From a virus, in the IMG/VR virus record IMGVR_UViG_3300005613_000103, positions 1 through 48,265 of that record: a stretch of 48,265 nucleotides of DNA. One strand, written 5' to 3'. Below, piece after piece: positions 5,866 to 42,251 of the stretch. The translations under genes and the position numbers were made by a program. Each line of letters begins with the position of its first letter. Within the stretch, counting starts at the first letter, position 1. The notes under the pieces are model-generated. The model had not been told where the DNA came from. It saw only the letters and a program-made list of their open reading frames with translations, and made no database searches.

Positions 5866-8679
5866 TCACCAGGCAACACCAGACGTCGCTCTGGCAATCT
5901 CCCGAATAAGCATCTGAGTCTCACGGAGCTGTGTTCCCAACTTGCTATCACGCTTCTCCATCTCACGACGGATCGCCTCAAGCGCTGCTTTCTCATCGGC
6001 ACGATCACCGTCAAACAACTCCCTCTCACTGATCCCCCGGGCAGCCGGAGTCTCGACAGACTCGAAACCACCAGTCGGGCCTGCCATCTTCTGCTCTTCC
6101 TTCTTCTGCTTCGTGATCTCAGCAATCTCGTCATCACTGAGCCCATAGACATTGCTCAGCAGAAAATACGACGACACGTGACGCTCCATCATCGACGCCA
6201 AATCAGCACGCGCTCGACGCACTTCCATCTGGCCAAGCTCAAAGATGGCACTCGGCACAGTCATGTTGATCTTGAAATCAACAGCCATCGGATCAATCTT
6301 CCTGGCAGCGAGATGAACCCTGGCCACCTTGCGCATCCCGTTGATGAACTCGTTCTGCACACGGAGCACAGTTTTTGCAAACCTGACGTCTTCCTGACTG
6401 TTGTGAACCACGACACCCTGCCCAATCGCAAAGTTGTGATACCCCTCAACGGTCAGATCGTAAGTGTCAATCACCGGACCAGGACGGACGCTGACCACCT
6501 TGTGGTTACGCCCCGCCCGTGAAGATCGATAGGCCGCATCCCTCATGACACTGGAAGCCATGTATTCGCCAGCAAACAGGCGATACGAGATCCCATGCTG
6601 AGAAAGCACCCTGTTAATCAGCGCCTCACTGTAACCAGACCACTTGACCAGCTGCTTCTTACTCTTACAGCGATACTCTCTCGCGACCCTGATCAGATGC
6701 TCGATGGTCGCATCACTTCGCCACCTGCTGTTCTTCTCGCCAGCCGTATCAGGAGCTGTTCCGTCCTCGATTCTGTCAACCATTATGGCCGACATCTTCT
6801 CCCTGAACCCATCTCCCCTTGAAAGCCTCATGGCTCCGCCGGGATCAGACCACTGCTCCTTCATCTGCCTGGACTTTAGATCCCTGTGTTCATCAGAATG
6901 GACCCAGTCCCAAAACTTGGAACCAGGACGCTTGCTCATGGCAGACGCCTTGGCAATGCTCTCCTTGGCCTCATCCGTCTTCAGCCAAGCAGCCTGTGCA
7001 GCCTTGCGCTTCTCGATGACATCCGGGCGACCGATGGTCTTCTCAGCATGCTCAGCGTGAAGCTTGCGATGATCGTCCCATGCCATGATCTCCAGATTCT
7101 CCGGCCTGTTGTCACGCTTGTCGAAGTTCACATGGTGCCGGACGTTGCCCTTCTCGACTTCCTCAAACAACGTGTCGGTCACTACCCGATGGGTCATCCC
7201 CCAGGAGTCGTCACCAGGATGATAAACCTCCTCGTATCCCCTGAGAGAACCCTCCGAGTCACGCCGATACAAAGGCATCAACGAATCACCAGCCGCAAGC
7301 TCCTGAGCCTCACAGTACGAACCATCCCGCCTCATGACAGGATGATCCGGCGTGCATGTCAGCACCTCACCGTTATCCAGCTCAACCTCGACCGTTTCCG
7401 CCTGACGTCTCGTGACCCTGGCGTTCTTGCCAAGCCCAGGAACCACATTGTTGTTCTCATCTATCGAGTACAGCCAGAAAGGATCGTCCCGCTTGGATAG
7501 CTCAGCTATCGTCGGCTCAGTGCCGTCGAGCAACGGAATCGGCGTGTCACCAGCAAGACACAACGTCGCCTTGCTGGGCATGTTCTCGTCGTACCCCAGG
7601 TAGGCTCTCGGCACCTTCAATGCAGCGTAGAGCTTGTATAGAAAATACTGAACATCCTCGACTTGCTGGTACGATGGTCCATTGAGCACGTCAACACGTG
7701 TCTTCTCTTGACCATCACGCATCCCAAGAAAGAAGTCCTCATCAAACGACAGAGGGTTGAACCTCATGTCCAACTTGCCCGTCTTGGGGTTCACAAATTT
7801 CTTCTTCTTGATCCGGTTCTTCACATTCTGAATCGCACGCTCAGCCTCCTCCCGGGGGAGGTTGCCCACGTCGATGTAAAACGCATACCTGCTGGGGCTT
7901 CTCGTCAGCTTATAGACGAGCACCGCATCCTCAAGCAGCATCAGACGTCGCCAGATCCACCGGGCAGGCTCAGCGATGGACCACCCGTACATCGACTCCC
8001 TGTTCTTGGATCGCAGACGCATATGAGTCACGCGCCAATCCTCGAACACAGCCGAGTCACCCTGTGGACTCACAGCGCTCCCGGACTTCGTCTTCATCTG
8101 CTCGAACTGCTGCTCGTTCACCTCCATGTTCGACGAAAAAGACTGCACAACCCCAAGGAAATCGCCGCGCTTACTCTCAACCCTTCGGCATGTCGCCGGT
8201 GGAAGATAATTCAGCTCCTGGACACCCTTGTCTCCGATAACGATCTCCTCAAAATCGTTTCCGTACTTGCACAGTGTTCTGATTATCTCCCAGGCATTTT
8301 GATCTATTTTTAGCCTCTTATGAAAGACGTCTGTGAGATCGTCACACACGTCCTGGTCCTGGCACTCAACCCACAACACGTGCTTGTTCTCGCTGTCCAT
8401 CTGGGAAGAGTCGTCTGAATATATATCCAGGCTGCTCGTGATGTCTGGATATTCATCCATCTCCTCATAATCGGCATAGCGATGAAGCAACCGCTTATCG
8501 AGCCCCAGGACATCGCCAATTCCACCGACACCCATCGTGTCAACGTTCCCAAGGCCAATCCCCATACCCATCTGCGCTCGCGCCAGATCCTTGGTAGACA
8601 CAGCCAGCTCAGAGTTCTGCTTTTCTCTGGAGAAGACACGCCGGATAAAATCAGTGGCAACGGATGTCAGTTTTGCCAT
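5866..8679 (-). CDS. Portal protein, T4 gp20-like, interrupted by an intein
   Basis: The dodecameric portal forms the DNA channel at the head vertex and binds the terminase. The exteins (residues 1-373 and 761-937, 550 in total, close to T4 gp20 at 524) carry gp20-type segments: DEYPDITSSLDIYSDD, YVLVYKLTRSPSR-like DAVLVYKLTRSPSRYAFYID, VPRAYLGYDENMPSKATL and, after the intein, SQEDVRFAKTV. The intein occupies residues 374-760 and splits the strongly conserved KATL/SQEDVRF junction. Upstream on the same strand are an internal protein and a polyprotein. The start has GGAGAG at suitable spacing. Confidence 0.92.
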   Translation of the reverse strand: MAKLTSVATDFIRRVFSREKQNSELAVSTKDLARAQMGMGIGLGNVDTMGVGGIGDVLGLDKRLLHRYADYEEMDEYPDITSSLDIYSDDSSQMDSENKHVLWVECQDQDVCDDLTDVFHKRLKIDQNAWEIIRTLCKYGNDFEEIVIGDKGVQELNYLPPATCRRVESKRGDFLGVVQSFSSNMEVNEQQFEQMKTKSGSAVSPQGDSAVFEDWRVTHMRLRSKNRESMYGWSIAEPARWIWRRLMLLEDAVLVYKLTRSPSRYAFYIDVGNLPREEAERAIQNVKNRIKKKKFVNPKTGKLDMRFNPLSFDEDFFLGMRDGQEKTRVDVLNGPSYQQVEDVQYFLYKLYAALKVPRAYLGYDENMPSKATLCLAGDTPIPLLDGTEPTIAELSKRDDPFWLYSIDENNNVVPGLGKNARVTRRQAETVEVELDNGEVLTCTPDHPVMRRDGSYCEAQELAAGDSLMPLYRRDSEGSLRGYEEVYHPGDDSWGMTHRVVTDTLFEEVEKGNVRHHVNFDKRDNRPENLEIMAWDDHRKLHAEHAEKTIGRPDVIEKRKAAQAAWLKTDEAKESIAKASAMSKRPGSKFWDWVHSDEHRDLKSRQMKEQWSDPGGAMRLSRGDGFREKMSAIMVDRIEDGTAPDTAGEKNSRWRSDATIEHLIRVAREYRCKSKKQLVKWSGYSEALINRVLSQHGISYRLFAGEYMASSVMRDAAYRSSRAGRNHKVVSVRPGPVIDTYDLTVEGYHNFAIGQGVVVHNSQEDVRFAKTVLRVQNEFINGMRKVARVHLAARKIDPMAVDFKINMTVPSAIFELGQMEVRRARADLASMMERHVSSYFLLSNVYGLSDDEIAEITKQKKEEQKMAGPTGGFESVETPAARGISERELFDGDRADEKAALEAIRREMEKRDSKLGTQLRETQMLIREIARATSGVAW
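6400..7560 (-). mobile_element. Intein with HNH homing endonuclease in the portal gene
   Basis: A 387-residue intein begins with Cys (CLAGDTPIPLLDG, block A) and ends with VVVHN before Ser+1 of the C-extein. Block B-like CTPDHPVMRRDG and block F/G DTYDLTVEGYHNFAI complete the splicing domain. An HNH endonuclease lies inside: NVRHHVNFDKRDNRPENLEIM, preceded by THRVV and followed by DDHRKLHAEH, then a C-terminal helix-turn-helix-like DNA-binding part (SKKQLVKWSGYSEALINRVL). All expected splicing residues are present (Cys1, TxxH-like TPDH, terminal His-Asn, Ser+1), so splicing is expected. It is clearly related to the intein in the large terminase. Confidence 0.9.
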
Positions 8680-12880: not shown

Positions 12881-15800
12881 TTACCCGGTAAAAATCACCG
12901 GACCTGCTCTGTCGCTTGCCAACTGCGGTGCCTCATCGCCAGACCGCTTCATGGTTCTCCTGATCCACTCACTGTCCGCCGAGTCATCTTCGTGCTCACT
13001 GATCCCAATCTCCAGGGGCGTCCCGTATGCCAAGTTGTTCGACAGCGAATACGCCACACCCGCAAGACTATCACTGACATCTTTGCTATTATGAACAAAC
13101 ACACCAGCACAGAGTGCAAAGTTATGATGCTCATCAACCTCTAAGTCGTACACGGGAACTGGCTCATCAAGGGAGACAGGAATCACGGCTCTGACCTTGT
13201 GGTTCTCTCCACCGTGTGCCTCCACGAATGCTCCCCAGTCTGAAAAACCGTTCTCCTTGAGCACGCGAACAACGACGTTTCTGCTACACCCGATCCTCCG
13301 TGCTGCACCGTTCGTCGTCTTCTCGTCACTCGCCTCAACGAGGCTCTCGATTGTGACGTCGCCGCGAAACCAATGAGAACCTCTCGATCTCTCAGCCGCC
13401 AACGCGCTTCGCTCCTCACTCGTCATCCTGTGCATCGTCTTGCGCATTGACTCAGAGTGCACGCGCCTGCCATCCTCGCTCAAATTGAACGCCTGCAAAG
13501 CCTGCGCTACCTTCTTGCTGTATTCCTCGTCATCCCTGTGCCTCTCCTCGGCATGGACTCGCGAATGCACCGACTTGTCCCTGACTTCGAGGTTGTCTGG
13601 ACTGTTGTTGGTCTTGTTTCCGTCGATGTGATGAACTATCGAGCCACTGGGAACACCACCCAGTAACTCATCCGCAACCATGTGGTGAGTGAGAGCACGA
13701 TGCGCATCCCTGTTCGATACCCGTTCATACCCACCGTTCACCGGCCATGCCCTCTTGATCGACATCAAACGATCTACACCGGGTACGAGGTCCTTGGCCT
13801 CCTTGTAGGTCCCGTCCCTCAACATCCATCGGTGATCAGGGGTGCAGCGAGCGACAGCGCCACTGTCGAGCACAACATCAACAAGGTCGCAGGTCGTCTT
13901 TGTCATCCGCCCTCTTGCCATCCCAGGAACTATCCTTCCATCCAGGGTTGAAGAGTAGACCCATGCCTCACGGCCATCGAGTTCAGCCATTGTCGGCATC
14001 GTTCCGTCAAGCAGAGGAACCCTCGTATCGCCAGTGAAGCACCCAGACTCCGGATGATCAATCTTTCGCACCTTCTCGTTGCGCTCAAGAGCCTTCAACT
14101 CATTCAGCAAAATGGGATAATCGTAGAAACTCAGCCGACCCTCATAGATCGCACCCTTCAGCGCATCGTAGCCATCCGTGTTCTTGTCCACGGAGAAGAT
14201 CTCAGCCTTCATCCCCTGCTGCCTGAATTTCTGCAACGATTCCGCAGACTGGAACGAGTCCATCGTTACACGGGTGATCGGAAATCCATGATGCATGAAC
14301 CCATAAACAAGACCCCGAATCGCACCAATGTCAATCTCCCCGTCAGGAGGCGGCTCAATCCTCAGCACGAGATCGACCTCGATCAATGGCGCAGTCTCCT
14401 TCATCGGCGTCCCGTCATCGAGTCTCCTTTCGACGTCTATATGATCAACCGTGTGAGCAATGCAGATCCCAGCCGGGTCTGTCTTCCCCAAGCTCAGATC
14501 GATGTGGACATGACGCTGAGCATGAGGGTGTCTCCTCGGCTCGACAACCTCCTCGTAGACCCCAGGTGCCACCCGCCTGCGCACGCGCCTGGAAATGGCT
14601 CTCCAGTCGATAGACGGACGGTCCCCTGTCTTCCAGGTCTCAGTCCTCAGCGGATGGAACAACGTCGGGTCAACAGCATGATCGATCCGCTCCGGCATCT
14701 GGAAGTACAAGGACACCGTCGAGGTAACCACACCACCGATGTCCCGGATGCTGTCCTCAAGGTTACGCTCAAAATCGCTGCGAAAATTCTCAGGCACGTG
14801 CAGGAATCTGCACCCCTGATCATACAGGCTATCACGCCCATCCTTGCCAATGCTCTCGTACTCGTGATCCGTGAGAATCTTGTGTTTTATCTCGTTAGCA
14901 CCAACCAGAACCCAGAACCTCTCCTTCGAGAACCTCTCCGGTGGCTGGACGTCATAGAGTGCATAATCACGCACAAACATCGTCGGCTCATTTCGAGCCT
15001 GGACAATGCGCCTGTTCGTGAACGACTCCTTGTCCCTCGCCGACGACGACATGAAAAGCTTGCCAGGCAAACTGCCAGCTCGCTCATATCGAGACTTCAT
15101 CCTCCGCGTGATCGACGCATGAAGCATCTCGGCAAACGACTTCCCGCCAGAGAGCTTCTGACTGCTCCTCAGCGTGCTGCCCTCCAGGAACTCAGTCTCG
15201 TCAATGATGCCGCCGAAGACGTTCCTACCCAGCGCATCTGCCGAACGAGCAGATACAGCAATTACCCTGATGTTCTTCTCGCGATGGACCAGATCGGATG
15301 TGCTGATGTGGATGTCTTGCGAGTTGAAATACGGACTCGTCTCTATCATCCTCTTCACACCACCAAACGTCACCTCGCGAGCAAGCTTGTGGTCACGGTT
15401 GAAACAGACCAGAACAATCTCAGAGTCCGGCATCAACCCAAATGTGGCCTGTGGGTCAGTGAGAGCACACAGTAAGTAAAACTCCCTGATGAGGCCCATG
15501 TTGCAAAACGTCGTCTTGCCTGAACCAATCGACCCCGTGATGATGATCTCGTTGTACTTCCCAGCATCAAGTTCGATCAGATCTGACTTCCATCTTGGGA
15601 ACAAGTTCTTACCTGACCGGCCAAGATAATCATCGCTGATCAGGAACTCCTCAACAGGAACTATCTGCTCGTCGTAGTCAGCAGAGGCAAGAGCATGCCA
15701 GTTCTGAGAGTAGGAGATAAGCTCTTCCTGGCTGTCAAAATCACCGTCGCCTCGAAGGTGCCCCAGGACGTCAAGCTCATCGAGAACACAGACGAACGCC

Positions 15801-15907
15801 CTCTTCTCCTCCGGCGACATCTGAGAAAGACGGTGCCTGAACCACGATCGCTTCTCGGCAAGCGTCCGCTGCGAGATGTTCCTTCCATCTTTCGTCGTGA
15901 CAATCAT
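12881..15907 (-). CDS. Terminase large subunit (TerL), interrupted by an intein
   Basis: The packaging motor ATPase and headful nuclease. Walker A is GSIGSGKTT at 125-133 and Walker B GGIIDETE at 232-239. The RNase H-like nuclease carries HVHIDLSLG (Asp 470), VTMDSF (Asp 550) and, after the intein, SKDVSDS (Asp 943/946). The intein spans residues 623-940 and sits in the nuclease domain at HPESG/SKDVSD, a site commonly invaded in phage terminases. Without it the protein is 690 residues, usual for large-phage TerL. It starts with an ATGA overlap with the gene upstream, so the two are translationally coupled. Confidence 0.93.
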   Translation of the reverse strand: MIVTTKDGRNISQRTLAEKRSWFRHRLSQMSPEEKRAFVCVLDELDVLGHLRGDGDFDSQEELISYSQNWHALASADYDEQIVPVEEFLISDDYLGRSGKNLFPRWKSDLIELDAGKYNEIIITGSIGSGKTTFCNMGLIREFYLLCALTDPQATFGLMPDSEIVLVCFNRDHKLAREVTFGGVKRMIETSPYFNSQDIHISTSDLVHREKNIRVIAVSARSADALGRNVFGGIIDETEFLEGSTLRSSQKLSGGKSFAEMLHASITRRMKSRYERAGSLPGKLFMSSSARDKESFTNRRIVQARNEPTMFVRDYALYDVQPPERFSKERFWVLVGANEIKHKILTDHEYESIGKDGRDSLYDQGCRFLHVPENFRSDFERNLEDSIRDIGGVVTSTVSLYFQMPERIDHAVDPTLFHPLRTETWKTGDRPSIDWRAISRRVRRRVAPGVYEEVVEPRRHPHAQRHVHIDLSLGKTDPAGICIAHTVDHIDVERRLDDGTPMKETAPLIEVDLVLRIEPPPDGEIDIGAIRGLVYGFMHHGFPITRVTMDSFQSAESLQKFRQQGMKAEIFSVDKNTDGYDALKGAIYEGRLSFYDYPILLNELKALERNEKVRKIDHPESGCFTGDTRVPLLDGTMPTMAELDGREAWVYSSTLDGRIVPGMARGRMTKTTCDLVDVVLDSGAVARCTPDHRWMLRDGTYKEAKDLVPGVDRLMSIKRAWPVNGGYERVSNRDAHRALTHHMVADELLGGVPSGSIVHHIDGNKTNNSPDNLEVRDKSVHSRVHAEERHRDDEEYSKKVAQALQAFNLSEDGRRVHSESMRKTMHRMTSEERSALAAERSRGSHWFRGDVTIESLVEASDEKTTNGAARRIGCSRNVVVRVLKENGFSDWGAFVEAHGGENHKVRAVIPVSLDEPVPVYDLEVDEHHNFALCAGVFVHNSKDVSDSLAGVAYSLSNNLAYGTPLEIGISEHEDDSADSEWIRRTMKRSGDEAPQLASDRAGPVIFTG
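13088..14041 (-). mobile_element. Intein with HNH homing endonuclease in the terminase gene
   Basis: A 318-residue intein starts at Cys 623 (CFTGDTRVPLLDGTMPTMAEL) and ends VFVHN before Ser+1. Splicing blocks CTPDHRWMLRDG and PVYDLEVDEHHNFAL are present. An HNH endonuclease is inserted: HMVADELLG, IVHHIDGNKTNNSPDNLEV, then HSRVHAEERH, followed by a DNA-binding tail (RIGCSRNVVVRVLKENG). The block A segment and the domain order match the portal intein, so the two are paralogous, diverged copies in one genome. Splicing residues appear intact. Confidence 0.9.
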
Positions 15908-25483: not shown

Positions 25484-25496
25484 TTTACTCAGTAAA
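25484..25496. promoter_or_regulatory. Palindromic operator candidate TTTACTCAGTAAA (copy 1)
   Basis: A 13-base palindrome (TTTAC T CAGTAAA type, perfect apart from the central region) in the divergent intergenic region upstream of the deoxyribosyltransferase-like gene. The identical 13-mer occurs at 38196-38208, upstream of the AcrVA2-like gene. Two exact copies, both just before minus-strand operons, suggest a regulator site. Confidence 0.5.
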
Positions 25497-35950: not shown

Positions 35951-36180
35951 CCGTCAGCACCGTCCATCTTGTCAAGCGGACACCACTCCGGGATCTCGCT
36001 CAAAGTTCTCTCGTCGAGCTTCTTCCCAATAAAGTGTCCACCATGACCCCTGCACTCATCATCATCCTCAAAGCTCTGATGATAACAATGCGGTCCATTC
36101 GGATCTCCCTTCGGCGACGAACAATGGTAGATCACGTTCGGACAATCATCACAGCTACGCACCAGTATCACTCTCATCAT
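35947..36180 (-). CDS. Small Cys-rich protein
   Basis: A 77-residue protein with CDDCPNVIYHC, GPHCYH and EWCPL, a pattern of small zinc-binding phage proteins. It overlaps its neighbours by four and 26 bases. Function unknown. Confidence 0.65.
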   Translation of the reverse strand: MMRVILVRSCDDCPNVIYHCSSPKGDPNGPHCYHQSFEDDDECRGHGGHFIGKKLDERTLSEIPEWCPLDKMDGADG

Positions 36181-36787
36181 CGTCCCCTTTTATCGCATCT
36201 TTCTCTGCGACCAGGTCTCTCTGATTGGCCCCAGTGTACGAAAACTTCTCGCCATGACGCTCAGCCAACTTCCGATCGTTCGCCTCCCAGATCTGCGTCG
36301 TGCGAGGAATGTCAACAGGCAACCTCTCATTGATCGCCTCCGGAAGCCGCACCAGAATCTCCCAGATGTTCCCTAGAACACCCGGCATCTCATCATAGGC
36401 TGTCCCCCTGGAGTAAATGACAACAGCCTTCACATCGCTCACATAGCGCTCAACGTTCTTCATCAGCTCAGCAATAAGTCCTGACAACCCATGCCTCGCA
36501 GCATCAGCCACAGCCCCCGGATCGAGCGAAATCATCCGACTATCCATCCGGACACCAAGAGCATCAAACCCCAGCATTGTGAACCACCAGAAATCACCAA
36601 GCTCCTCGATGATCTCACCCCTGTCTGCGCGTGATATTGCCTGTGTCAGCTCAAAAAACTCACTCGACACCCCAAGGGCAGAATGAATCAGCCGGATGTT
36701 CTGCTCCTCCTGGACCACACTGGAAATCTCTGCGTAGTTCTTGTTCTCACGCCCCAGCACTGTCGACATGTACTCTGCTGAGTTCAT
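36155..36787 (-). CDS. MazG-like NTP pyrophosphohydrolase
   Basis: A 210-residue protein. IHSALGVSSEFFELTQAIS and IIEELGDFWWFTML give the EExxE-12x-ExxD-type metal site of all-alpha NTP-PPases. The middle (ELMKNVERYVSDVKAVVIYS) repeats the helical layout. Such phage enzymes break down nucleotides or alarmones. GGGAGG precedes the ATG. It is the second MazG-like protein in the window. Confidence 0.8.
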   Translation of the reverse strand: MNSAEYMSTVLGRENKNYAEISSVVQEEQNIRLIHSALGVSSEFFELTQAISRADRGEIIEELGDFWWFTMLGFDALGVRMDSRMISLDPGAVADAARHGLSGLIAELMKNVERYVSDVKAVVIYSRGTAYDEMPGVLGNIWEILVRLPEAINERLPVDIPRTTQIWEANDRKLAERHGEKFSYTGANQRDLVAEKDAIKGDDDESDTGA

Positions 36788-38179
36788 CTACACACCTCCC
36801 GACTTCATCACATGAACCTTCTTGGTAACCGGAGCATATTCCGGCCCACGCCAATGTGGCTCAATAAATATCCTCTTCCTCTCAGATCGTCCCGCTCCAC
36901 ATGCCTGATTCCTCCAATGACCAGAAACAAGCGTCCTGACTGACATCGGAGATCTCCCTCCTGCACCAACACAACCCACACCACCACCTAGCTCTTCTAT
37001 CTCTCTGTCAAGATACACTTTGCCGCCAAGCACAATATGAGGAGACGAGCTAACAGCCTTGGCTCTCCTTAATATACTCTTCCTCTTTCTCGATCTAACC
37101 GGAGCCCTCATCGCACGCTCAAACAACTTTCTGTACTCCGGATCAGATTGGACGATCATCGTGTCAGCATCTGACATCGTCGCATACAAAATCAAATTGA
37201 CCACATACCTAACAAGCCGAACAGCATCATTGTCGACATTGCCATCCCATCCAATCGACAGTTTCGACTCATATATGCTCTCATCAACAGTCTTCCCATC
37301 AGACAAATCCAACGAAAAACAAACGGCATGATCAGCACCAGATGAATCATAACGAAAAAAAAGAGACCTATTCCCGTCCCCCAATACACAGTGAGAAACA
37401 TACACGCCAGCCCTGTTATGTGACGATCCGTTTCCATCCTCATTCGCGTAATACTTCCCGGCTGGCAACAATAGATAAAAACATGAAAAAGGAGGAATAA
37501 CATCGCTGGCGGGGCACCCCCTAAGAACAGTATTCTCCAACCTGATCCTCAAGCCAGGGGACACATGGTAGACCTTTCGGCCACCTGTTACCCACATCGC
37601 ATGTATCAAAGGATGAAAATACAAATCAAGAATATCAGAAATAAACCCATCGCCACTTCTCGGCATCGCCATGTTGACCAGATCAACATCACGAATACCT
37701 GACCTCTCTGTAAGCCCATAAAGCTCTCTAAGATGATCAAGAAGACCATATACATAACAGGTGAGAGCGCCATCACTATAAAGCGATCTCAGATCAAAGT
37801 AGATCCTGTCACCACCGCTGCCCATGTCATTACAAATTAGATTATACATCCATGTCTCAAGGCAAAGATATGGAGCACCATCGCCATCCACATTCCCGGC
37901 AGAAACATCAATTCCACTCGGACCCGAAAACAGATTAAGAACATCAACTCCCTCGCTAATGGCACCGGACATAACTCTGACAATCTTCTCACGATCACAG
38001 ATGAAATGCCGATTATATGCCTCTGAGATAGCTGCGCCGGTCTTGACTATCCACTCACCAGGGGACACATCTCCTGGCCACCTCCGTGACCGCGAACTGT
38101 CAGACAGCTCCTCAAACGCGCAGCCAACCATCTCAGGAGTGACAACGTCAACAAATGACAAATCCACAGAACCACTCAT
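36788..38179 (-). CDS. AcrVA2-like protein, candidate anti-CRISPR
   Basis: About 463 residues from MSGSVDLSFVDVV; a TTG four codons earlier is possible. The C terminus TLVSGHWRNQACGAGRSERK followed by IEPHWRGPEY has the GHWR/GHWH box and trailing basic strand of AcrVA2-type proteins, and RLVRYVVNLILYATMSDADT matches their hydrophobic core helix followed by a short loop. AcrVA2 lowers Cas12a levels by acting on its nascent chain/mRNA, and relatives occur in phages of hosts without Cas12a. The gene is AT-richer than its surroundings, has no GACGTC, and follows a palindrome and terminator, so it looks imported. Its target is unknown. Confidence 0.5.
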   Translation of the reverse strand: MSGSVDLSFVDVVTPEMVGCAFEELSDSSRSRRWPGDVSPGEWIVKTGAAISEAYNRHFICDREKIVRVMSGAISEGVDVLNLFSGPSGIDVSAGNVDGDGAPYLCLETWMYNLICNDMGSGGDRIYFDLRSLYSDGALTCYVYGLLDHLRELYGLTERSGIRDVDLVNMAMPRSGDGFISDILDLYFHPLIHAMWVTGGRKVYHVSPGLRIRLENTVLRGCPASDVIPPFSCFYLLLPAGKYYANEDGNGSSHNRAGVYVSHCVLGDGNRSLFFRYDSSGADHAVCFSLDLSDGKTVDESIYESKLSIGWDGNVDNDAVRLVRYVVNLILYATMSDADTMIVQSDPEYRKLFERAMRAPVRSRKRKSILRRAKAVSSSPHIVLGGKVYLDREIEELGGGVGCVGAGGRSPMSVRTLVSGHWRNQACGAGRSERKRIFIEPHWRGPEYAPVTKKVHVMKSGGV

Positions 38180-38195
38180 CTCGATCACCAATCAA

Positions 38196-38208
38196 TTTAC
38201 TCAGTAAA
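38196..38208. promoter_or_regulatory. Palindromic operator candidate TTTACTCAGTAAA (copy 2)
   Basis: Identical to the 13-mer at 25484-25496 and placed 17 bases before the start of the AcrVA2-like gene, where a repressor could block it. Confidence 0.5.
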
Positions 38209-38235
38209 AAAACAATCATCACTGTTTGGCTCTTC

Positions 38236-38285
38236 CAGGTCTCCTGGGAAAAGCGGGGAGCAACACTGGCTCTGTGCTGCTCCCC
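38236..38285 (-). terminator. Strong hairpin, probable terminator
   Basis: GGGGAGCA (38255-38262) pairs perfectly with TGCTCCCC (38278-38285); the loop can add a CAC/GTG pairing. On the minus strand it is followed by GCTTTTCCC. A second stem, CCAGG/CCTGG (38236-38248), follows. It would end transcripts from the 38.4-41 kb operon before the AcrVA2-like gene. The rest of the 200-base gap shows only a TTGACA without a good -10 box. Confidence 0.55.
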
Positions 38286-38397
38286 TCGAACCTAACAACT
38301 GGGAGGGTAGGACCAATGACAGACCCTGACCCACCAAGAGGGTCACATATCAACTAAGCCCTGTCAACCAGTTATGAACACACGTTCATAAACGTAA

Positions 38398-38886
38398 TCA
38401 TTCACCTGGCTTTTTGTCAAACTCAGTCCTGACAACACCAGGAGGATCAGGCGGAGTCGACCGCCTCGGCTGACTCATCTTTGCAGCCGCCGCTGCCACC
38501 CTGGGATCAATAGGAGGAGGAGTCCCCTTGCCCTTCCCGATCTCCTGCATCATCGACCGAAGACCGGCCAGTGCCTCTGGAGAAATCGCTGCCGTGGAAC
38601 CCATGTCACCAGACCCACGGATAGACCACATCGCGTCAATCTCCGTCACCTGATACTCCCCGTTGATCATCTGACTCGCCAAGCTCTCAGCCTTGGCGCG
38701 CAGGATCTCATCACTGAAAGACGTCTCCTTCGGAATCATCGACGCCTTGATCAGTTTGTTCACCTCGCCGACCATGAGATAGTCACGCATGAGAATGTAA
38801 AAAGCTGTGGTCAACCTGTTGTAAATCGGCACCATCAGCTCACGGGCGCTCACCGTTTTTCGCTGTCCCTCACCTGCTTCTGCCAT
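38398..38886 (-). CDS. Hypothetical protein
   Basis: A 162-residue protein with AAAGGGG before the ATG. The N-terminal half is helical (ELMVPIYNRLTTAFYILMRD) and the C terminus Pro-rich and basic (RRSTPPDPPGVV). It is the last gene of its operon, before the hairpin terminator. No family recognised. The 120 bases upstream (38887-39009) hold one GACGTC and no gene. Confidence 0.65.
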   Translation of the reverse strand: MAEAGEGQRKTVSARELMVPIYNRLTTAFYILMRDYLMVGEVNKLIKASMIPKETSFSDEILRAKAESLASQMINGEYQVTEIDAMWSIRGSGDMGSTAAISPEALAGLRSMMQEIGKGKGTPPPIDPRVAAAAAKMSQPRRSTPPDPPGVVRTEFDKKPGE

Positions 38887-41108: not shown

Positions 41109-42251
41109 TCAGTCATGGACATCAGGGAGGTCACCGCAGCACGAGTACGATCCGCTAGGGTGGCAACCCTCGTCGAACTCAGGATGATGGGTTCCCCCCG
41201 CAGTCTCGCAGTCAAGCCCGGGAGTCGTAAAGCGAATACAGTAAAGTCCATATGCCACGTCGCAATATGTTGGCCCCGGATCTTCGGTGTCGGTGTCCTC
41301 CGGCTCATCCGTGTCCGGCTCGACATACCGGCAGCACACGTTATCCATGTACGGGTACTGCTCACAATGAAAGTCCGGGTATCTCTCCCAGTCACCATCA
41401 ACACCGTCACGCTCATCCCACTGATCGCAGGGGAGCTGCCCCAACTCGTTAACACACTGGTAAGGGCAGGGCTCAGCGGAGTCCGTGTCCGCCTCGGACT
41501 CCGTCTCGGTCTCCGTGTCCACTTCGGGCTCCGTCTCAGTCTCCGTATCAGTCTCCGTATCCACCTCCTCATCCGGGTTACAGCAGAGCACTCGCCTGTC
41601 TACTGAGCACTGGTACTCCGGGTGAGTCACGCCGAACCCGAAAAACTCACAGTCACCGTGCAGATCCGTCCTCACACACAAGAACGGACACGTATTCTCG
41701 ACCCCGGTATCAGTGTCAAGATCACTGTCCGATTCGGTGTCTGCGTCAGTGTCAATGTCGGCATCGGTATCCACATCGGTATCGGCATCCGTGTCCGAGT
41801 CGGTATCCACATCCGAGTCTGTGTCGGTGTCCGCGTCAAGGTCGGAACCGGTATCAGCGTCTGCATCAGCGTCGGCATCGGTATCAGCGTCGGTGTCCAC
41901 GTCCGAATCGGCATCCGTGTCTATATCAACATCAGCGTCAGTGTCCACATCGACATCTACATCCCCAGCCGATTCCGTGCCTTCCACTTCCGTCTCAGAG
42001 TCCTCAGCCAGGTCTGTCGGCCACTCCTCTTCAGAGTCTTCCACCCCGGTCTCTTCCTCCTCTTCCTCGCCTGACCCCGTGGTATCTCCTGGTTCGCTGT
42101 CGCTATCGTCAAGATCAGAGTCAGGATCCACCCAGCCAGGATCATCAGACCCGATACCATCTCCGCCATCTCCATCAGGACCCTCCATGTTGTAGACAGT
42201 CGTGTCCTCACAGCCCAGCAACAGGATACATGCCAGCAAAAATCTCGTCAT
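41109..42251 (-). CDS. Asp-rich lipoprotein with Cys-rich repeats
   Basis: A 380-residue protein. [20 protein letters not shown] is a lipoprotein signal with lipobox LLGC. Residues about 25-185 are Asp/Glu/Thr/Ala-rich, including a long DTDAD-type tract. Three Cys-rich units follow ([34 protein letters not shown]), each with HPEY/YPDFH-type His. Such extended acidic lipoproteins are typical of Myxococcota and kin. In a phage it may mask receptors or exclude other phages; unproved. Its composition and lack of GACGTC suggest transfer from a host. AAGGAGAGG precedes the start. Confidence 0.75.
41700..41965 (-). repeat. Degenerate hexamer tract coding Asp-Thr/Asp-Ala repeats
   Basis: About 260 bases built of GTGTCG/GTATCC/GCATCG-like hexamers (plus strand) that code DTDADxD repeats in the lipoprotein. 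Length change by slippage is likely. It is not a CRISPR array, as no constant repeats with unique spacers exist. Confidence 0.75.

Follow-up and report, generated by a model that had tools for sequence, protein, structure and literature searches.

A minus-strand gene in a virus record from IMG/VR raises two questions: whether its product, which ends in a GHWR box, is related to the anti-CRISPR protein AcrVA2, and, if so, what such a protein may act upon. We addressed both by computational analysis of the whole stretch of DNA (48,265 bases, hereafter the window), of the protein and of its relatives in other genomes.

The gene and its surroundings

The ORF scan of the window revealed T4-type genes for the head (major head protein, head maturation protease and portal), thus marking the record as part of the genome of a large tailed phage. 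No integrase was found among the ORFs scanned in this large myophage fragment. The portal and terminase-like ORFs (5866-8679 and 12881-15907; 937 and 1008 aa) each contain an in-frame HNH endonuclease segment, as would be expected of inteins or of homing elements inserted in frame. A 380-aa ORF at 41109-42251 bears a lipoprotein-like signal at its start and TDTDADAD repeats; repeats of this kind are reminiscent of lipoproteins from Myxococcota/Bradymonadota, a possible clue to the host.

The ORF under study is real, and its boundaries and length are exactly those assigned to it in the initial annotation (Table 1). It starts with the ATG at 38179-38177 and ends with the TAG at 36790-36788, while an alternative TTG start at 38191 would give a product of 467 aa; unless stated otherwise, residue numbers below refer to the 463-aa protein, which enters our alignments from residue 2 onwards. 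The gene had also been described as lying in an AT-richer island, and this holds: at 47.5%, its GC content lies below the 55.0% of the window (z -3.5); among the 25 minus-strand genes of at least 150 aa, none has a lower GC3 (0.449; median 0.646), and no other large gene of the window is as AT-rich. The low GC content suggests a separate acquisition.

The terminator and the palindromic operator between which the gene was initially placed do exist as a hairpin and a palindrome, but both are situated upstream of the gene, in the intergenic stretch 38180-38397, so that the gene does not lie between them. The 71 nt around the hairpin fold with -33.3 kcal/mol (z -4.6); on the minus strand the hairpin is followed by only four T, which is why it was not called by a strict terminator scanner. 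It would terminate the upstream gene (38398-38886) and not the AcrVA2-like gene. The palindrome TTTACTCAGTAAA has one other exact copy in the window, at 25484-25496, and both exact copies are located 5′ of minus-strand genes. When up to two mismatches are allowed, four sites are found vs. 0.23 expected. Judging by the sequence, the two exact copies may represent a shared operator.

On the downstream side, a MazG-like gene follows without a gap, its ATG coming directly after the TAG of the AcrVA2-like gene; the ribosome-binding site of the MazG-like gene, GGGAGGT, is embedded in the last codons of the AcrVA2-like gene. This junction indicates that the two genes are probably co-transcribed as one operon. 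In the neighbour comparison, the MazG-like gene was not kept beside the closest relatives of the AcrVA2-like gene.

Table 1. Coordinates of the AcrVA2-like gene, its protein segments and the flanking elements in the window
Feature	Position	Strand	Remarks
AcrVA2-fold protein gene	36788..38179	-	463 aa; ORF, profile and fold match
Variable N-terminal region	37682..38179	-	residues 1-166; unalignable with nearest relatives
AcrVA2-like core	36791..37681	-	residues 167-463; AlphaFold2 model, pLDDT 83.6, pTM 0.83
Motif 1, GGRKVYHVS...PPFSCFYLLLP	37463..37585	-	residues 199-239; in alignments matches AcrVA2 SLGVYRID...RLPDWCVYIEL
Hydrophobic helix VVNLILYATMSDAD	37163..37204	-	residues 326-339; counterpart of AcrVA2-family LLPILLWLCAEEPDI
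Basic stretch RSRKRKSILRRAK	37058..37096	-	residues 362-374; surrounding segment net positive in 48/48 members
C-terminal box SVRTLVSGHWRNQACG...FIEPHWRGPE	36839..36943	-	residues 413-447
MazG-like nucleotide pyrophosphohydrolase gene	36155..36787	-	phrog_229, E 2e-9
13-bp palindrome TTTACTCAGTAAA	38196..38208	.	just 5′ of the AcrVA2-like gene start
GC-rich 12-bp hairpin	38255..38285	-	terminator-like for the preceding gene; weak T-run
Palindrome TTATGAAC-N4-GTTCATAA	38372..38391	.	in the intergenic region upstream of the AcrVA2-like gene

Relation of the protein core to AcrVA2

Pfam and NCBIfam gave no match for the AcrVA2-like protein, and PHROGs recognised only its last 50 residues (family 15934, function unknown, E 3e-13). 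As an AcrVA2 homologue for pairwise comparison we used ORF43 of Shewanella phage Y11, which phmmer ties to the solved AcrVA2 with E 1.5e-72; the two-sequence BLASTP match to the window protein was marginal (E 0.007), and a search of IMG/VR with the Shewanella homologue alone yielded no matches. When PDB was searched by phmmer and with small profiles, AcrVA2 was not recovered, and a 48-row profile placed it second in the list, with an E of only 5.3. These failures reflect the sensitivity limits of single-sequence and small-profile searches and are not evidence against homology.

Relatives were collected from IMG/VR, from plasmid and phage sequences and from bacterial genomes, and profiles were compared with profiles. 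The window subfamily, as a profile of 11 sequences, matched an 8-sequence profile of the AcrVA2 family at 97.9% (E 4e-13), and with a 48-sequence core profile the hhalign match to the AcrVA2 family reached 99.0% over 243 columns (E 4.8e-18). The controls gave 0.2% for a reversed AcrVA2 profile and at most 1.3% for 20 column shuffles; the likeness to AcrVA2 is far above chance. After the C-terminal box (C-box) had been deleted from both profiles, the match was still 97.7% (E 1.4e-12), which, together with the 243-column match, indicates that homology spans the full core. A portable C-box as the only shared motif is ruled out by the same comparison.

Four motifs follow one another in the same order as in AcrVA2: the first strand/helix, then the strand PPFSCFYLLLP, the hydrophobic helix and, last, the VG strand together with the GHW box. 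The GHWR of the window protein occupies residues 420-423 within GHWRNQACG (nt 36896-36922), where AcrVA2 has GHWHGxWxG, and G420, H421, W422 and G428 align with the GHW and the G of the AcrVA2 sequence RRGHWHGxWxGxG.

Structure prediction points in the same direction. AlphaFold2 supplied with the 48-member alignment produced a core model with the scores given in Table 1, vs. a pLDDT of 31.5 from three sequences only. In PDB, Foldseek ranked the AcrVA2 chains 7ci2_A, 7ci1_B and 7ci1_A first to third (E 5e-7 to 2e-6), with the next match at E 0.13 and none other below 0.1; the TM-scores of the model against the AcrVA2 chains were moderate (0.47-0.50). Out of 350,542 PDB chains, VIA-align likewise put AcrVA2 (7CI1/7CI2) in the first three places; it superposed 214 residues at 4.4 A with a Z of 15.0, as compared to 3.4 for the next unrelated chain. 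AcrF10 and phage coat proteins also appeared in the VIA list, at the noise level (Z about 3). Among predicted viral proteins, nine structure matches had a probability of 1.00, including gp126 of Erwinia phage RisingSun (L050:2701-3702), which is independently an AcrVA2 relative by sequence; its label 'putative mycothiosynthase' is likely a misannotation. As modelled, the core has the AcrVA2 fold, and the initial description of the GHWR box and the preceding hydrophobic helix as AcrVA2-like is confirmed by both profile and fold, the two points on which it could have failed. Taken together, these results leave us nearly certain that the core is homologous to AcrVA2 and folds in the same way.

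Conservation is distributed unevenly along the protein: compared with the seven nearest relatives, the N-terminus shows 8-21% identity, the core 24-29% and the C-box 45-75%. The C-box is kept while everything else changes, which makes it the likely effector part. Charge is layered as well, the mean net charge over 48 members being -8.9 in the middle and +6.0 and +6.8 in two C-terminal segments, both of which are positive in all 48; AcrVA2 relatives show the same polarity, with an acidic middle and a basic C-terminus. A variable part joined to a constant basic part fits many targets served by one common effector. Ten members of 526-776 aa carry no known fused Pfam domain.

The GHWRNQ branch, its carriers and neighbours

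In a tree of 62 rows, the AcrVA2 family formed a single clade (support 100/99), and the window protein fell into a separate 11-row clade with large-phage relatives (98/94), within the branch defined by the motif GHWRNQ. Plasmid, Actinomycete and Mu-like members made up further clades; the deep order of the tree is unsure because the end branches are long. The window protein is therefore not AcrVA2 in the narrow sense. It also keeps none of the ten residues proposed for the Cas12a-peptide pocket of AcrVA2, but this counts for little, as the pocket was docked (PMC10846135), not observed, and the local alignment is weak. With AcrVA2 of Moraxella (7CI1, 7CI2) it has in common the core fold, the motif order, the GHW C-box and the charge layout, at about 15% identity. 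It is indeed longer, as was first claimed (463 aa vs. 322-358 aa for AcrVA2 and its homologues), and its N-terminus is longer and unrelated.

The close homologues of AcrVA2 belong to Moraxella Mcat phages and Shewanella phage Y11 (phrog_6160). The nearest clade includes four large-phage relatives from IMG/VR, with 28-32% identity over ~270-330 residues (E 1e-32 to 9e-37), whose N-termini cannot be aligned with that of the window protein and whose immediate neighbour genes are not shared with it. The PHROG 15934 proteins (Propionibacterium phages PFR1, PFR2 and G4; Corynebacterium phi16), about 295 aa long, share the C-box (residues 413-462 in the 467-aa numbering) and outside it show no single-sequence similarity to the window protein. 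AcrVA2 homologues in huge phages have already been noted (PMC7162821). AcrVA2-fold proteins beyond the reach of sequence were hinted at by structure searches, in which the two-domain protein A0A1H8YQI0 was reported as a structural match of AcrVA2 with 8% identity (PMC12230656). The literature searched, in which subscription papers were few and preprints absent, yielded no account of the GHWRNQ branch or of a connection between it and AcrVA2.

The branch is found in large and temperate phages, in plasmids and in the genomes of Actinomycetes. Cas12a was encoded in none of the 25 bacterial genomes carrying a member, and cas1 was undetected in 14 of them, although draft genomes may hide some. Because 14 standard control genomes also gave no Cas12a match, the same search was run on 299 genomes from the phylum to which one carrier belongs, where a full-length Cas12a was found at 1314 bits in one genome; the search thus works, and its outcome shows as well that Cas12a is rare. 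These data agree with the initial claim that AcrVA2 relatives occur in hosts without Cas12a, and suggest that the AcrVA2 trick may serve against other targets. The further claim of a broader, translation- or mRNA-linked defence target stands in part, a target other than Cas12a being consistent with both counts.

Members of the family reside in phages, prophages, plasmids and transposons. A search for a conserved partner gene revealed none; the neighbours are most often integrases, and only within small clades do members have neighbours in common. Scans of the neighbours with Pfam, PHROGs and PADLOC revealed no recurring or enriched defence or anti-defence family. Members in temperate phages of Propionibacterium, Corynebacterium, Pasteurella and Lactobacillus lie near the integrase, an IncC plasmid member is situated beside an integrase and a Tn3 transposase, and in a Mu-type element (L075:5598-9623) a member is inserted between the genes for a MuA-like transposase and a MuB-like ATPase. 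In a Peptococcaceae MAG (L081:3513-8515), a member adjoins a GajA/GajB-like (Gabija) pair. Six Micromonosporaceae loci have a common upstream gene, which encodes a GGDEF protein in the two loci scanned, and the N-terminus of the member there is a different, Cys-rich (CxxC) module. In four contigs, a pair of AcrVA2-fold genes lies on one strand in a stretch of about 3 kb, and in three of these contigs the two genes adjoin or overlap each other; the paired proteins could possibly form heterodimers. Counter-defence genes are usually solo, mobile and fast-diverging, and the gene studied here resembles them in all three respects; this is a pattern, not a proof.

Possible function and its meaning for the family

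A shared fold with AcrVA2 does not prove a shared function, and we found no functional data on any protein of the GHWRNQ branch. According to a review of a preprint, AcrVA2 recognises the nascent N-terminus of Cas12a, which leads to the loss of Cas12a mRNA by a decay machinery that is unknown, and is presented as the first prokaryotic case in which an mRNA is destroyed in a translation-coupled manner in the conflict between phage and host (PMC13131331). Meeting abstracts state that AcrVA2 can be retargeted to tagged Cas9 and Cas12f (PMC12908700).

By analogy, we favour, with middling confidence, the reading that the window protein is a co-translational silencer of one host gene, with a defence gene distinct from cas12a as the probable target. 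During infection, the variable N-terminus and the acidic middle would read a single host protein, probably as its chain emerges, while the basic and nearly invariant C-box would contact something universal in hosts, such as the ribosome, RNA or a decay factor, whereupon the target mRNA would be lost. Considered separately, an anti-defence role appears moderately probable, and for a mechanism of the AcrVA2 type, given the homology, the chances seem about even.

The same basic C-terminus and universal C-box, with no tie to any particular defence system, would also suit an AcrVA2-fold RNA- or ribosome-binding regulator of phage or general host expression that is not directed at defence. The carriers in which cas1 went undetected and the probable co-transcription with the MazG-like gene, a type usual in phage host-takeover operons, speak for such a regulator. 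However, spread on plasmids, Tn3-type elements and prophage lysogeny modules is more typical of accessory counter-defence, and the sole characterised relative is an anti-CRISPR; we thus regard a regulator as rather unlikely. Protection of the element's own host against other phages, by superinfection exclusion or as part of a defence island, is suggested by the integrase-proximal members of temperate phages and by the cellular member beside the Gabija-like pair, but the latter is a single case, and the window, part of a large myophage with T4-type head genes, shows no integrase among its scanned ORFs, which makes this explanation improbable. That the protein is a genuine Cas12a inhibitor, as its AcrVA2-like fold and C-box might imply, is very improbable in view of its position outside the AcrVA2 clade, the absence of the docking-proposed pocket residues (a weak point) and the lack of Cas12a in the carrier genomes despite a working search.

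Returning to the silencer that we favour, a wider picture may tentatively be drawn, in which co-translational mRNA silencers would form one large superfamily, spread on phages, plasmids and transposons, with AcrVA2 as a minor offshoot. Each member would read a different nascent host protein through its variable N-terminus and middle, all would set off decay through the same constant C-terminal GHW box, and the window gene would be directed at a defence gene outside CRISPR. The results call for caution before an AcrVA2-like phage protein is labelled an anti-CRISPR. The diverse GHWRNQ branch offers natural variants for finding the decay machinery and new targets.
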